Shown in pieces: positions 32,045 to 58,620 of a stretch of DNA of 64,000 nucleotides. Location: assembly GCA_003168375.1 (NCBI GenBank), contig PMSI01000002.1:372001-436000 (forward strand). The letters are read 5' to 3'. Below the pieces are notes generated by a model, which did no database searches, was not told the origin of the DNA, and was given only the letters and a program-made list of their open reading frames with translations. Source of the stretch: Vulcanimicrobiota bacterium. Its GTDB lineage: Bacteria > Vulcanimicrobiota > Vulcanimicrobiia > Vulcanimicrobiales > Vulcanimicrobiaceae. Both the position numbers and the translations under genes were made by a program. Within the stretch, counting starts at the first letter, position 1, and each line of letters begins with the position of its first letter.

Positions 32045-32120
32045 TGGAGCCGACGGCCGGACTCGAACCGGCGACCTGCTATTTACGAAACAGCTGCTCT
32101 ACCAACTGAGCTACGTCGGC
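32045..32120 (-). tRNA. tRNA-Thr (anticodon CGU)
   Basis: 76 nt on the minus strand. Acceptor GCCGACG/CGTCGGC, D-arm GCTCAGTTGGTAGAGC, anticodon stem GCTGT/ATAGC with loop TTCGTAA (anticodon CGT), T-arm GCCGG-TTCGAGT-CCGGC, encoded CCA end. It reads ACG codons, the most used Thr codon in the Thr leader peptide about 3.2 kb away. Confidence 0.95.
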
Positions 32121-34019: not shown

Positions 34020-35237
34020 TTAGGCCGCGTCGCGCCAGACGGGGATCATCGACTGCACCTCGCCGCGCCCCTTCGACAAGCTCTGGATGACATGGCCGAA
34101 TCCGCCGGCCGCCGCTTCGAGCGCGTCGAGCGGCATCGCATCACTCGTCACCACGCTGCCGCTCGCGAACCGTACCAGCACCGGCGCGCGTAGCGGCGCG
34201 GACACCAAATCCTCACCCTCGTGCGCCTGCACGCCGCGCTCGCGCGCTTCGAGCGCCGCCAGCACGTCGGCGACGACCGACGACGCGGTCGCGTCACCCC
34301 CCGCACCCGCGCCCGAGAACACCAGCGTGCCGCAGCCGCGTCCGACCACGCGAACCACGTTCTCCGCGCCGCGCGGCCGCGCGAACGGATGATCTTCCGG
34401 CACGAACGCCGGCGTCACGCCGGCCTCGATCACGTCCCCGGCTTTGCGCGCGACCGCGACGAGCTTCAGCCGCAGGCCGCGCTCCGCACCGGCGCGCACG
34501 TCATCGCGCGAGATCCCGCCGATCCCGCGCCGCGCCAGCGCCGGCGAGACCGAGGGGCGGCGGAACGCGAGCCCCGCCAAGATCGCGAGCTTGTGCGCCG
34601 CGTCGTGCCCGTCGACGTCGCTGCGCGGATCCTGCTCGGCGAAGCCGAGCCGTTGCGCTTCCGCAAGCGCGTCCGCGTACTCCGCGCCGCCATCCATCGC
34701 GTCGAGGACGAAGTTGGTCGTACCGTTGAGCACGCCGCCGATCTCGAACACGTCTTCGCCGGCGAGCGATCCGCCGAGCGCGCGCACGATCGGGATCGCA
34801 CCGCCGACCGCGGCCTCGTAGCGCAGCGATGCGCCGGTGCGCGCCGCGAACGCGGCCAGCCACGGCCCCTCGGTCGCGATCAGGTCCTTGTTCGCCGTGA
34901 CGACGTCCTTGCCGCGCGCGATCGCACGCAGGATCAGCTCGCGCGCCAGCCCGAGCCCGCCGATGCACTCCACCACGACCCGCACCGAGGGATCGTCGAC
35001 GACGTCGAACGCGTCGCTCGAGAAATCATCCCACCGAACGTCGCGTGGCTTGTGCGGATCGCGTACCGCGATCCCGCGAATCAGACCCGGATGCGACGCC
35101 AGCAACCGCCGCGCGACCCCCGACCCGACGGTGCCGCAGCCGAGGAGGCCGACCCCGTTCGCGCGCGCCGTCGTCAGCGACGTCGCCGGGGACGAGATCG
35201 CTTCAGACGAGCACAGGACACGCGGTAGGGTTTGCAC
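34020..35237 (-). CDS. hom: Homoserine dehydrogenase
   Basis: 405 aa from GTG 35237, 5 nt after GGAGG; an ATG at 35249 would bury that site in the gene. NAD(P)-binding GLLGCGTVGSGVARRLL, then VTANKDLIATEG, GAIPIVRALGGSLAG, GVLNGTTNFVLDAM and QDPRSDVDGHDAAHKLAILA, all diagnostic. It reduces aspartate semialdehyde to homoserine, the branch to Thr and Met. The C-terminal region (about 80 residues) is a reduced or divergent regulatory part; its last residues run through a dispersed repeat unit. A Thr/Ile leader peptide and terminator precede it. Confidence 0.95.
   Translation of the reverse strand: MQTLPRVLCSSEAISSPATSLTTARANGVGLLGCGTVGSGVARRLLASHPGLIRGIAVRDPHKPRDVRWDDFSSDAFDVVDDPSVRVVVECIGGLGLARELILRAIARGKDVVTANKDLIATEGPWLAAFAARTGASLRYEAAVGGAIPIVRALGGSLAGEDVFEIGGVLNGTTNFVLDAMDGGAEYADALAEAQRLGFAEQDPRSDVDGHDAAHKLAILAGLAFRRPSVSPALARRGIGGISRDDVRAGAERGLRLKLVAVARKAGDVIEAGVTPAFVPEDHPFARPRGAENVVRVVGRGCGTLVFSGAGAGGDATASSVVADVLAALEARERGVQAHEGEDLVSAPLRAPVLVRFASGSVVTSDAMPLDALEAAAGGFGHVIQSLSKGRGEVQSMIPVWRDAA
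34068..34085 (-). repeat. Dispersed repeat unit (CTTCGACA type) inside hom 3' end
   Basis: CCAGAGCTTGTCGAAGGG on the minus strand matches units at 37540-37557 and 61489-61504 (consensus TGAGCYYGTCGAAGGG). It encodes part of the hom C-terminus (QSLSKG). Confidence 0.5.
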
Positions 35238-35268
35238 GGGAACCTCCATGTGGGGTATCGGGGGAATG

Positions 35269-35298
35269 AAAAAGGCCCTCGCCATTCGGCGAGGGCCT
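35269..35298 (-). terminator. Attenuator terminator of hom leader
   Basis: Perfect 11-bp stem (35298-35288 as 5' arm, 35283-35273 as 3' arm, loop GAAT) followed by TTTTT on the minus strand, 31 nt before the hom start. Its 5' arm GCCCTCGCCG (35296-35287) is exactly complementary to CGGCGAGGGC (35355-35346) in the leader peptide reading frame, giving a 10-bp antiterminator. Confidence 0.88.
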
Positions 35299-35321
35299 CG
35301 TCTCGTATCGCTTCGTCCGCG

Positions 35322-35408
35322 CTAAGCCGACGTCGATCCGGACCTGCCCTCGCCGAGGGTAGTCGTCGTCGTGATCGTCGTCGTCATAATGACGCAGAGC
35401 GCGGGCAT
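35322..35408 (-). CDS. Thr/Ile leader peptide of hom attenuator
   Basis: 28 aa from ATG 35408 (or 21 aa from the in-frame ATG 35387). Its core MTTTITTTTTLGEG closely mirrors enterobacterial ThrL. Nine Thr and two Ile residues; seven of nine Thr codons are ACG. The first ATG is 9 nt after the -10, so the mRNA is probably leaderless. The region coding LGEG is the antiterminator strand. Stalling at Thr codons would prevent the terminator from forming and let hom be made. Confidence 0.85.
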   Translation of the reverse strand: MPALCVIMTTTITTTTTLGEGRSGSTSA

Positions 35409-35417
35409 CGTTCAGTG

Positions 35418-35447
35418 ACCCTACCACGGCCGCACCCCCTCGCACAA
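35418..35447 (-). promoter_or_regulatory. Promoter of hom leader
   Basis: Minus strand: TTGTGC (35447-35442), 18-nt spacer, TAGGGT (35423-35418), 9 nt to the leader ATG; same geometry as the ilvE and metY leaders. Confidence 0.58.
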
Positions 35448-35463
35448 GTGGGCAACCAATCCT

Positions 35464-36468
35464 TTACCGAGTGTTGGCCCGAGCGAGCCACATCTCGATC
35501 GCGGCGTTGACCTGCGCGGGTTGCTCCTGAGCCATCCAGTGCCCCGTCTCCAGAACGAGCTCGGTCAAGTCGGAGCAATCACGCCGCATCGGCTCGGCCA
35601 AACGCGAGTCGACGGTTTCGCAGATCGCATCGTAGGCGGCGTGCAGGAACAACACCGGCAACCGCAGCGCTCCGCCGTCCGCGACGCGAGCCGCGTAGGC
35701 CATGTTCCGGTCGGGGTTCAGATACCAGGAATCGGGTCCCGCGAATCCGGTCCGCGCGAACGCGAAGACGTATCGCGCGAGGTCGTCTTCGGACAGCACC
35801 GCCGGATCGCGCGGCAGATCCGGCGCGCGCCCCGTCCCGCCGAACCAGCCGCCGTCACGGGTGACGCGGGCCGTGAGTGCGGGCTTCCCTTTCTCCCGGA
35901 CGTCTCCGCGGCGGAACAGCGCCTTGAACGTCGCCGGCAAGTCGGCTTCGAACGCCGCCGCAGCGGCGTCGGCTGCGGTCTGATAAAACAACTGGTAATC
36001 CCACTGCCCCGCGGGATACTTCGCTTCCGGATAGACGGTCCGGTCGACCAGCGGCACCACGGTCTCCGGCGTGAAGCCCTTCGCGAAGTACGGGACGCAC
36101 AGGCTGACGACACCGTCGCAACGCTCGGGATGATGTCCGGCGAGCGCCCAGACGAGCGGACCGCCCCAGTCATGACCGATCCAGGTCGCGCGTTCCGCTC
36201 CGAGGCCGCGCAACAGCTCGACCATGTCGAGGACGACCTGCTCCAGCGCGTAGTCCTCGGGGTTTCCCGGGACGTCCGATCTGCCGTATCCGCGCATGTC
36301 GGGCGCGACGCACCGGTATCCGAGCGCCCCGAAATGCTCGAGCTGCTCCCGCCACATCATCCCGAGCGCGGGCCAACCGTGGACGAAGATCAGGAGCGGT
36401 CCGTCGGGCGGCCCGCTCTCGAGATACGCCGTCGTGTGTCGCTCGGTCCGAACGACGTGCTCGGTCAC
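35464..36468 (-). CDS. Alpha/beta hydrolase, epoxide hydrolase-like
   Basis: 334 aa, GTG start overlapping the metX stop by 4 bp. Oxyanion-hole motif HGWPAL, nucleophile in IGHDWGGP (Asp, as in epoxide hydrolases and haloalkane dehalogenases), APDMRGYGRSDVP, and the C-terminal His in LETGHWMAQEQP. HGWP and Asp nucleophile favour a soluble epoxide hydrolase. It is the third gene of a metY-metX operon; a role in sulfur or methionine metabolism is not evident, so it may simply be carried along. Confidence 0.82.
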   Translation of the reverse strand: MTEHVVRTERHTTAYLESGPPDGPLLIFVHGWPALGMMWREQLEHFGALGYRCVAPDMRGYGRSDVPGNPEDYALEQVVLDMVELLRGLGAERATWIGHDWGGPLVWALAGHHPERCDGVVSLCVPYFAKGFTPETVVPLVDRTVYPEAKYPAGQWDYQLFYQTAADAAAAAFEADLPATFKALFRRGDVREKGKPALTARVTRDGGWFGGTGRAPDLPRDPAVLSEDDLARYVFAFARTGFAGPDSWYLNPDRNMAYAARVADGGALRLPVLFLHAAYDAICETVDSRLAEPMRRDCSDLTELVLETGHWMAQEQPAQVNAAIEMWLARANTR

Positions 36469-37567
36469 GAGACCGCCGAGGTGCCGGCGCGGAATGCGCT
36501 CCCGATGCCATCGCGCAGCACGGCCGCCAACGATTCCGGCTCGGCGAGAAACGCGTCGTGTCCGTGATCGCTCGCCAGATCGCGATACTCGACGTCCCAG
36601 CCCGCCTCGCTCCAGCGCGCCGCGCAACTGCGCACGAACTCCGGCGGATACAGCTGGTCGCCGGCGATTCCGACGAACGTGAATCGCGTCGAGCCCGCCG
36701 GCCGCTCCTTCCCGCGCAGATCGAACAAGTCCATCGCACGCGTCAGCATCAAATAGCTGTTCGCATCGAACCGCTGCACGAACACGTCGCCCTGATGCGC
36801 CAGATAGCCTTCGACGTCGAAGCGGTCACCGAGCGAGCGCGACGGATCACCGCCGGCCCGATCCGGCCGGTTCGCGAATCGCGTTTCGAAGAGCGCCTCG
36901 CTCTTGTAGGTCAGCGTCGCGATCGCGCGAGCCAGGCGCAGGCCGTCGACCGGCGGCTCCTCGTACCAGCCCCCGGCGAATTTTGGATCGAGCCGGATCG
37001 CCTCGCGCGCGGCGAAGTTCTGCGCGATCCCCTGCGCGCGCAAGTGATCGAACGTCCCGACCACGATCGCATGATCGACCGCGTCGTCGTACCCGCGCAC
37101 CCACTGCAGGCACTGCTGACCGCCGAGCGACCCGCCGATCGCGACCGCGACCCGCGGAATCCCCAGCTCGCGCAGCGCGCGCCGCTGCGCCTCGACCATG
37201 TCGCCGACGGTGACGACCGGAAACCGCGGACCCCACCGCCGCCCGTCCGGCGCGAGCGAGGACGGCCCGGTCGAGCCGTAGCATCCGCCGAGCACGTTGA
37301 CGCCGACGACACACCACTGTGCGAGATCGAACAGCCCGCCCTCACCGACCAATCCGTCCCACCACTCGACGACGCGCGACGAGCCGCTCAGGGCGTGCGC
37401 GACGAACACGACGTTCGACCCGTCGGCCTTCGGCTCACGCCCGTATCGCGTCACGCGCTGCACGACCGACGGAATCGACGCGCCGGAGGCCAGCTCCAGC
37501 GCGCCGATCTCCACATCACGTTCCGTGATGTGAGCCCGCCCTGAGCCCGTCGAAGGGTCGTGCTCGG

Positions 37568-37571
<4 letters not shown>
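36465..37571 (-). CDS. metX: Homoserine O-acetyltransferase
   Basis: 368 aa, GTG start overlapping the metY stop (GTGA). Alpha/beta hydrolase fold with [23 protein letters not shown], nucleophile [14 protein letters not shown], and C-terminal Asp/His region [13 protein letters not shown]. It acetylates (or succinylates) homoserine for direct sulfhydrylation by MetY. The first 17 codons run through a dispersed repeat unit ([14 protein letters not shown]), which may be a recent N-terminal extension; the conserved domain begins around residue 20. Confidence 0.93.
37540..37557 (+). repeat. Dispersed repeat unit at metX 5' end
   Basis: CCTGAGCCCGTCGAAGGG; on the coding (minus) strand it encodes DPSTGSG at the metX N-terminus. 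Same unit as at 34068-34085 and 61489-61504. Confidence 0.55.
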
Positions 37572-38866
<1,295 letters not shown>

Positions 38867-38908
38867 CGTGGGTCTCCTTCACGAATGCGTGGAGCGCGAA
38901 AGGGCTGG

Positions 38909-38946
38909 AAAACGAAGCAACCCCCGCTGGTGAGGCGAGGGTTGCT
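38909..38946 (-). terminator. Attenuator terminator of metY leader
   Basis: 12-bp stem (38946-38935 as 5' arm with 38927-38916, one G-U pair, loop of 7) followed by TCGTTTT on the minus strand. The 5' arm segment CAACCCTCGC (38944-38935) is exactly complementary to GCGAGGGTTG (38998-38989) inside the leader peptide gene, giving an alternative 10-bp antiterminator. Confidence 0.85.
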
Positions 38947-38966
38947 GTAGCTCCGTCGTACGCCGG

Positions 38967-39041
38967 CTAGGGCGACGACGATCTACACCAACCCTCGCGG
39001 GTGGCACACATCGCCATAATCGCCATACAGCGGCCGTTCAT
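38967..39041 (-). CDS. Met/Cys-rich leader peptide of metY attenuator
   Basis: 24 aa from ATG 39041 (a shorter version could begin at ATG 39026). The segment MNGRCMAIMAMC has four Met and two Cys in twelve residues; a third Cys follows in EGWC. No ribosome site is visible, but the ATG is 8 nt after the -10, so leaderless translation is likely. The codons for REGW form the antiterminator strand. Methionine or cysteine shortage would stall ribosomes and relieve termination. Confidence 0.8.
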   Translation of the reverse strand: MNGRCMAIMAMCATREGWCRSSSP

Positions 39042-39049
39042 ATGGCCGG

Positions 39050-39079
39050 ACCGTACCAGAACCGGCCCGGGGCAGTCAA
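39050..39079 (-). promoter_or_regulatory. Promoter of metY leader
   Basis: Minus strand: TTGACT (39079-39074), 18-nt spacer, TACGGT (39055-39050), 8 nt to the leader ATG. The gene-free stretch 38867-39236 holds this attenuator and, at its other end, the blaI operator; nothing else is visible in 39080-39203. Confidence 0.62.
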
Positions 39080-39203
39080 GGACAGCGCATCACGAAAAAC
39101 CGCGTTTGGCCGCCCGGGCCGTCGACCGAGCGGCGAGCCGCTTCTTGGTGAGCCGGCTTGATCTCGGGGTGTCGCGAGTCGAGGATTCTCCGTTCGTGGA
39201 GCG

Positions 39204-39221
39204 TACGAGGGGCTGTAGTAT
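39204..39221 (+). promoter_or_regulatory. Operator over -10 of blaI-type gene
   Basis: TACGAG-GGGCT-GTAGTA (39204-39220) is a degenerate copy of the perfect dyad at 41518-41534. It overlaps a -10-like TAGTAT (39216-39221). BlaI/CopY-type repressors bind GTA-rich dyads, so autoregulation is likely. Confidence 0.5.
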
Positions 39222-39236
39222 GCTCCGCTTCGCTTC

Positions 39237-39656
39237 ATGGACCCCATGAGCCCGAAAAAGAAAGCCGACCTCGGCAAGGCTCTGGGAACCCGCCAGGCCT
39301 CGATCCTCGAGTACCTTTGGGCGCACGGGCCGCAGTCGGTGTCCGACCTTCATCGCGGGCTGTCCGAGCGCGAGGACCTTGCGTACACGACGGTGTTCAC
39401 CGAACTGAGCCGGATGCTCAAGAAGGGCCTCGTCGCGAAGGGCAACGATGGCGGCTCGCATCTCGACATGCGGTACCGCGCGGCCGTGACGCGCGACGGC
39501 GTCGTCTCGACGATCGTGGCGCAGACACTCGGGGGGCTGATCTCGGCCCACGGGCCGGCCGCCGTCCACGGCTTCGTCGACGCAGTCGCGAGCGATCCCG
39601 GCGCCCTCGACGAACTGCGTCGCCTCCTCGACGATCGTTCGCGCAAGAAGCGCTAG
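39237..39656 (+). CDS. BlaI/MecI/CopY-family repressor
   Basis: 139 aa (a second ATG at 39246 is possible). N-terminal winged helix: GTRQASILEYLWAHGPQSVSDLHRGLSE, AYTTVFTELSRMLKKGLVAK; C-terminal dimerisation helices. Family members repress beta-lactamase or copper-efflux genes and are released by proteolysis (BlaR1) or metal binding (CopY). No CxCx4CxC metal site is seen, so release by the adjacent BlaR1/M56-like protease is more likely. It is 4 bp upstream of that gene. Confidence 0.88.
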   Translation: MDPMSPKKKADLGKALGTRQASILEYLWAHGPQSVSDLHRGLSEREDLAYTTVFTELSRMLKKGLVAKGNDGGSHLDMRYRAAVTRDGVVSTIVAQTLGGLISAHGPAAVHGFVDAVASDPGALDELRRLLDDRSRKKR

Positions 39657-58305: not shown

Positions 58306-58620
58306 ATGCACAATCGAACTCCCATGGATGGACTCTCCAGGCGCCTGCGCGCCTTGTCCGGCAGGACGCCCAGCGACAGCGGCATCATCGCGCGCTACTT
58401 TCCGAAGTTCGTGCGCGGCCGCCACGAGATCGTGGTCGACGACCTCGGCGAGCGCTGCGCGCGGTGCGCAGTGCTGCTCGGCAGGGCGTACCGCGTGCTC
58501 CACGTCTGGAAGCTTCGCACCGGGGTACAGGCTCGCTCGCCGCTGCTCACCCTGTGCGACCGCTGCGACGGCGACCTCCGCCCGCGCGCCTATCTCCACG
58601 TCACGCGGGCCTTTAGGTAG
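58306..58620 (+). CDS. Small hypothetical protein with two CxxC motifs
   Basis: 104 aa (or 98 from ATG 58324). RYFPKFVRGRHEIVVDDLGERCARCAVLLG and LCDRCDGDLRPR give two CxxC pairs that could bind one zinc. No family recognised. The 229 bp upstream (58077-58305) show nothing I can identify. Confidence 0.55.
   Translation: MHNRTPMDGLSRRLRALSGRTPSDSGIIARYFPKFVRGRHEIVVDDLGERCARCAVLLGRAYRVLHVWKLRTGVQARSPLLTLCDRCDGDLRPRAYLHVTRAFR

Follow-up and report, generated by a model that had tools for sequence, protein, structure and literature searches.

A predicted threonine-coded attenuator upstream of hom in a Vulcanimicrobiota bacterium, and related leader-peptide elements in its genus

The homoserine dehydrogenase gene (hom) of a soil bacterium, whose phylum has been little studied and is known mainly from metagenomes, is preceded by an element whose sequence makes it very probably a classical ribosome-mediated transcription attenuator. 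It lies in the window, the 64,000-nt stretch of DNA analysed here, which belongs to a genome of 4.43 Mb in 7 contigs (G000). The elements of this attenuator are conserved in relatives and form pairings that are mutually exclusive. The first-pass annotation of this DNA had described a leader ORF with 28 sense codons, an 11-bp terminator followed by five Ts, an exact 10-nt complement between the leader and the terminator 5′ arm, and hom as the single target gene, and all four descriptions were borne out. The ORF runs from ATG to TAG and encodes MPALCVIMTTTITTTTTLGEGRSGSTSA, with nine Thr and two Ile among its 28 codons, Met codons also being present and MTTTITTTTTLGEG beginning at codon 8. The terminator is a GC stem of 10 bp extended by an A-U pair and followed by T5, and CGGCGAGGGC in the leader (35355–35346) is the complement of GCCCTCGCCG in the terminator 5′ arm (35296–35287). 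In the window, hom is the sole gene of its unit, with the next long ORF (33839–32253) sitting on the other strand. Beyond that description, a promoter just 5′ of the ATG, a longer antiterminator hairpin and a second attenuator in the window were found (Table 1).

Table 1. Features of the two predicted attenuators and neighbouring genes in the window
Feature	Position	Strand	Details
tRNA gene	32048..32120	-	
hom, homoserine dehydrogenase	34020..35237	-	NCBIfam NF004976 343.6 bits; Pfam PF00742 178.4 bits; start assumed to be GTG at 35237
hom intrinsic terminator	35269..35299	-	GGCCCTCGCC 35297-35288, loop 35287-35284, GGCGAGGGCC 35283-35274, T5 35273-35269
hom antiterminator hairpin, predicted	35288..35354	-	leader GGCGAGGGC (35354-35346) with terminator 5′ arm GCCCTCGCC (35296-35288), interior paired
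Hairpin of strands 1:2	35347..35359	-	CCCTC-GGC-GAGGG, directly 3′ of the Thr codons; from sequence
Thr leader ORF	35322..35408	-	predicted leaderless; kept in 11/11 genus genomes
hom promoter	35418..35447	-	-35 TTGTGC, 18-nt spacer, -10 TAGGGT, 9 nt to leader ATG
alpha/beta hydrolase gene	35464..36477	-	between metX and the hom leader in this genome
metX, homoserine O-acetyltransferase	36465..37550	-	NCBIfam NF001209 334.6 bits
metY, O-acetylhomoserine sulfhydrylase / homocysteine synthase	37568..38866	-	NCBIfam NF006096 737.3 bits
metY-metX intrinsic terminator	38909..38945	-	GCAACCCTCGC ... GCGGGGGTTGC, T-rich tail (T-run 38916-38909)
metY-metX antiterminator hairpin, predicted	38935..38998	-	leader GCGAGGGTTG (38998-38989) with terminator arm CAACCCTCGC (38944-38935)
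Met/Cys leader ORF MNGRCMAIMAMCATREGWCRSSSP	38967..39041	-	from the blind scan; 11/11 genus genomes
metY-metX promoter	39050..39079	-	TTGACT, 18-nt spacer, TACGGT, 8 nt to leader ATG

From this arrangement we infer a start of transcription, translation, stalling, termination and a response at hom along the following lines. To judge from the promoter, RNA polymerase would initiate at or beside the leader ATG, and a ribosome would translate the leader during ongoing transcription. When charged Thr-tRNA is scarce, the ribosome would stall in the run of ACG codons, leaving GGCGAGGGC available for pairing with the terminator 5′ arm in the long antiterminator hairpin, so that hom would be transcribed. 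When threonine is plentiful, the ribosome would proceed, the leader segment would be covered or captured by the 1:2 hairpin, and the terminator would form and end transcription before hom. The position of the 1:2 hairpin after the Thr codons makes a protector role possible, and the Ile and Met codons of the leader may sense other homoserine-derived products.

The second attenuator, 3.7 kb from the first, precedes metY-metX. Its GCGAGGGTTG segment is an exact complement of the terminator 5′ arm, and Met/Cys leaders stand 5′ of metY (of metX in G003) in each of the 11 genus genomes. In G000, the hom and metY elements have antiterminator interiors that are alike beyond the stem (0/200 shuffles as high), which suggests common descent of both cassettes. 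Some of the metY/metX leaders (L152–L160, L242 and L255) show two reading frames across a conserved GGTGTAG; short leaders stop at its TAG (PRGTV), long ones continue in another frame (REGRCRSSSP), and the position of the stop codon relative to the switch thereby varies within one genus.

The hom element was compared with chance in several ways. The RNA from 35420 to 35262 folds at -71.6 kcal/mol versus -55.5 for shuffles (z -3.9). When both strands of the window were scanned blind for short ORFs of 12–50 aa (n = 242), the hom leader was the only one with at least 6 Thr in 10 codons, and a strong terminator within 90 nt accompanied just three: the hom leader, the metY leader (39041–38967) and an ORF at 58388–58260 that was judged spurious. 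Markov shuffles, few in number (n = 8), gave 0–2 pairs of ORF and terminator each, none with at least 6 Thr. The complement between leader and arm at this hom locus (L001) is unusual against dinucleotide shuffles (p 0.010) and not unusual against synonymous-codon shuffles in which the peptide is fixed (p 0.375). The blind scan and the count of all stem places (below) are the less biased checks, the tests on 85 leaders covering a selected set, for which composition and promoter were among the criteria used in picking from ORF lists.

‘Candidatus Eremiobacterota’ and WPS-2 MAGs are the closest relatives that carry a name, and the phylum name returned by a taxonomy tool is Vulcanimicrobiota. A Thr leader and terminator stand 5′ of hom in 11/11 genomes of the genus, the eleventh (G007, whose first hom locus, L003, ends at a contig edge) being counted from another locus, and in both genomes of genus g19, where the leader reads MSAVRxxMTTTIMTIPLGEGECRSVLV. 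Leaders at the 10 genus loci counted hold 6 to 9 Thr, with the length and codon order of the run varying, and the peptide end LGEGRSGSTSA, which coincides with the antiterminator strand, is kept in the genus. The first-pass annotation had held that relatives lacking the Thr-rich ORF or the compensating pairs would speak against attenuation; leader and terminator proved to be kept in 11/11 genus and 2/2 g19 genomes, and the antiterminator hairpin is predicted in 12/12 folded loci despite a differing middle sequence. Its proposal that the logic of threonine attenuation operates in a phylum distant from gamma-proteobacteria is supported, with ‘Candidatus Eremiobacterota’ or WPS-2 as the relatives. 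The sequence 5′ of the hom leader is the hydrolase gene in L004 and, rearranged, in L008, and resembles the end of metX in L005, L007, L011 and L012.

In the 12 hom loci that were folded (10 from the genus and two from g19), the stretch from leader GGCGAGGGC through the terminator 5′ arm is predicted to form one antiterminator hairpin in every case, with an interior that folds better than dinucleotide shuffles in 12/12 (z -0.5 to -4.1; z ≤ -2 in nine). The leader-arm complement likewise is stronger than in dinucleotide shuffles at 12 of the 14 hom loci, with a negative z in 24 of the 26 gene-by-genus representatives; results of these shuffles were negative or weak for metB (0/1), ilvA (0/2), ssuA-like genes (0/7), cysI (0/2) and pheA (1/6). 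Under synonymous-codon shuffles (p ≤ 0.05), ilvC is positive (5/8) and the Met-type hom operons partly so (8/24), with no signal for hom (2/14), metY/metX (3/14), aroA (2/7) or the remaining loci (0/18). Codon shuffles were rejected as proof of the antiterminator; at hom the lack of signal arises because the peptide GEG (Gly-Glu-Gly) alone fixes most letters of the complement. We take as the main sign of co-evolution the behaviour of Met-type loci across genera, in which, at 11/12, pairing of the leader is better with the cognate arm than with arms from other genera (Wilcoxon p 0.0012). Pair counting in the metY set gave 96.6% paired cells for the main helix and 87.0% for the whole structure, compared with 25–52% when slid; covariation within the genus was weak, with a score reached by 185/500 shuffles and one pair altered on both sides.

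Equilibrium folding with a masked ribosome, a model that ignores kinetics and sterics, was applied to ten loci. For the ilvC, aroA and pheA examples, the antiterminator is lost when a ribosome occupies the stop codon (0.07, 0.00 and 0.05, respectively) and is allowed by a stalled one (0.82, 0.93 and 0.71); the two Met-type hom operons agreed in part. The model did not discriminate at hom and metY, whose stop codons are placed farther 3′. A ribosome at the hom stop codon leaves 2:3 pairing possible before strand 4 exists, one on the last Thr codon covers strand 2, and folding of the full metY transcript without a ribosome favours the antiterminator. At these two genes, we infer, the switch must depend on the 1:2 hairpin or on ribosome bulk.

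The hairpin could also be read as a mere terminator of the upstream gene, hydrolase or metX, with the Thr-rich ORF incidental. Some 170 nt separate it from the hydrolase stop, genes are often followed by strong hairpins, and in the genus 25 of 80 places with the same stem were not classed as attenuators, one following a ribosomal protein gene. However, a promoter and an ORF intervene between the upstream gene and the hairpin, the upstream gene varies among relatives whereas leader and hairpin stay, and an incidental ORF would not retain both Thr codons and antiterminator in 11/11 genomes; we consider this reading extremely improbable. It is very improbable, too, that the leader is an arrest peptide or acts in trans, its Thr run being part of that activity rather than a codon sensor. 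Conservation of the peptide end LGEGRSGSTSA would fit such a role, and parts of a report on S. meliloti peTrpL (PMC7298713) describe an attenuator peptide that acts in trans, but that peptide end coincides with the antiterminator strand, the run varies in length and codon order (6 to 9 Thr at 10 genus loci), and sister leaders carry wholly different, pathway-matched residues.

Regulation by a riboswitch or T-box, with the ORF not acting as the sensor, would share the terminator/antiterminator logic of the hom element. Against this, a single tRNA is all that Rfam reports across the window at gathering scores, no T-box or SAM family comes up within 35200–39300 even at E up to 10, the sole leader-type match in that interval is Thr_leader, and the ORF and two hairpins fill the elements, which leaves such regulation next to impossible.

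The stem of the hom terminator was searched for as CCCTCGCN{3,10}GCGRGGG (CCCTCGC-N-GCGRGGG). It occurs at five places in the same genome, and all five are leader-peptide attenuators when classed by reading. Besides hom (Thr) and metY (Met/Cys), they precede ilvC (leader MFARLVLVLSVILTDPPDRRAAFA, with Leu/Val/Ile), aroA (leader MSACAFWYRLYYGYTGFVSVEFGAA, with Phe/Tyr/Trp) and the gene of an NMT1-like ABC-transporter substrate-binding protein (GTG-started leader MSNQYCLMAMCICCLPYRDRRASA, with Cys/Met). Across the 11 genomes of the genus the stem was found at 80 distinct places by our own count, 55 of them classed as attenuators by reading: hom 11, metY/metX 11, ilvC 8, aroA 7, ssuA-like 7, pheA 6, ilvA 2, cysI 2 and metB 1. 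A doubtful Cys-containing ORF at L252 was left out of the counts. The other 25 places are ordinary terminators (such as the one 3′ of a ribosomal protein gene, identified by its end sequence), lie inside genes or are unclear. Since a reversed-pattern control also matches (2 and 2 in the same genome), the stem pattern alone is no proof and the leaders carry the proof. An extra ilvC leader in G005 was located via the gene, the ilvC attenuator and an ilvC fragment of G007 lie on separate contigs, and ilvC leaders of the same kind are also present in g19 (two genomes) and genus g29.

NCBIfam and Pfam profiles assign representatives of the downstream genes to EPSP synthase, ketol-acid reductoisomerase, threonine ammonia-lyase, sulfite reductase and MetX, with further matches to a fused prephenate dehydratase-DAHP synthase and a cystathionine gamma-synthase-type enzyme. 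Leader composition tracks the downstream pathway over ten gene classes; for 26 representatives, whose leaders were selected partly by eye, the own-set fraction exceeded all 20,000 label permutations. No comparable leader was found at trpE (11 loci) or hisG (9 loci) of the genus. The fused prephenate dehydratase and DAHP synthase (L230:3–1478, minus strand) lies 3′ of a Phe/Tyr/Trp leader, and an NMT1-like substrate-binding protein (L196:1567–2556) lies 3′ of a Cys/Met leader, the residues of which suggest that the protein binds a sulfur compound. A single origin for all cassettes was considered and rejected, 13 of 15 comparisons being without similarity beyond the stem, and the shared stem may therefore reflect convergence. 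Wider similarity was confined to hom-metY (0/200 shuffles) and pheA-ssuA (0/200), first pair tested.

These leaders look leaderless themselves. A promoter score of at least 10 was reached by 82 of the 84 leaders scored (out of 85), versus 2.1% of 238 control ATGs, the promoter having been one consideration in choosing start codons. Between the -10 hexamer and the start codon lie 4–11 nt (mode 7) in the 84 leaders and 7 nt in every one of the 24 Met-type hom operons, so that the RNA is predicted to start on the start codon or no more than a few bases from it. Of the 85 leaders, 9 are preceded by a Shine-Dalgarno-like tetramer.

In the wider class, a search of 117 genomes gave a hom match in 78. 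A tree was built with 70 hom loci of the class; with leader labels assigned by reading, these comprise 12 with Thr leaders, 35 with Met/Cys leaders, four mixed or uncertain, one cut off and 18 with none, the last including L027 (short contig) and L151 (run of N), neither of them judgeable. In related genera, Met/Cys leaders stand 5′ of hom-metY-metX; metY and/or metX lies 3′ of hom in 34/35 Met/Cys loci, and neither does in the six of the 12 Thr loci whose context was read. The Thr hom loci form one clade (support 99) that branches as the sister group of the remaining class hom, a topology that does not polarise a change from Met to Thr. Two Met-type relatives, L030 and L113, have a promoter directly 5′ of the hom ribosome-binding site, with neither leader nor terminator, and look like natural deletions of the attenuator.

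By eye, six deeper-branching genomes of the phylum have no such leader 5′ of hom. Outside the class, 70 hom loci with at least 250 nt of upstream sequence yielded a flagged ORF in four (L092, L104, L067 and L089), of which L104, without a terminator, was dropped. The hom of L092 most resembles Verrucomicrobiota-type sequences. About 120 nt upstream of it lies a Thr/Ile/Val leader, MYMHTTITTVTVIGDS, accompanied by a strong terminator, and this is probably an independent case. It is about an even chance that the class runs much of its amino-acid biosynthesis via leaderless attenuators, Met/Cys being the commonest at hom, and that the hom and metY-metX cassettes of the genus are paralogues, in which one attenuator was duplicated when the units separated and its sensor codons changed between Met/Cys and Thr/Ile with antiterminator and terminator kept.

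In E. coli, thrL-thrABC combines a Thr/Ile-rich leader peptide and a terminator with a competing antiterminator, and homoserine dehydrogenase is a target. The element described here is like the gamma-proteobacterial thr attenuator (RF00506) in its Thr/Ile-rich leader, its terminator/antiterminator and its homoserine dehydrogenase target, and unlike it in serving one gene with no thrBC, in a leader that is predicted to be leaderless and in belonging to another phylum. RF00506 matches 35398–35267 end to end with 37.1 bits (E 1.8e-4), below the gathering score of 55, a cut-off reached in none of the 11 genus genomes; as a family test it was rejected, ordinary genus terminators reaching 39.6 and 37.5 bits. 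Mycobacteria reportedly possess polycysteine leaderless sORFs, Cys-rich and 5′ of sulfur genes. The leaderless, Cys-containing leaders before sulfur genes found here are similar, but mix Met with Cys and come with an antiterminator as well as a strong intrinsic terminator.

Leader-peptide attenuators of Actinobacteria (trp, leu, ilv and cys), as presented in sections of PMC8079986, have leaderless leaders, some with intrinsic terminators. The same sections place leaderless metL 5′ of metNIQ and thrL 5′ of thrS in Streptomyces lividans; unlike the hom and metY elements, these have no clear intrinsic terminator there, and their targets are a transporter and a tRNA ligase. Portions of a 2005 survey of Actinobacteria (PMC1262725) record no conserved RNA structures upstream of threonine or methionine operons. 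No such system was found reported for Eremiobacterota/Vulcanimicrobiota among open-licence PubMed Central papers, although the survey of Lopatovskaya et al. (2010) could hold cases. Within the reach of these searches, the combination of a Met/Cys leader with a full intrinsic attenuator is a new type.

Our results point to a multi-operon attenuation set in a phylum known mostly from metagenomes, in which the device predicted at hom recurs at other genes of the genus, its sensor codons there being those of methionine, branched-chain or aromatic amino acids. The Thr and Met versions, side by side at one metabolic branch point, are a natural test of sensor-codon swapping on a fixed RNA switch, and the composition of the leaders lets gene function be read in uncultured genomes.
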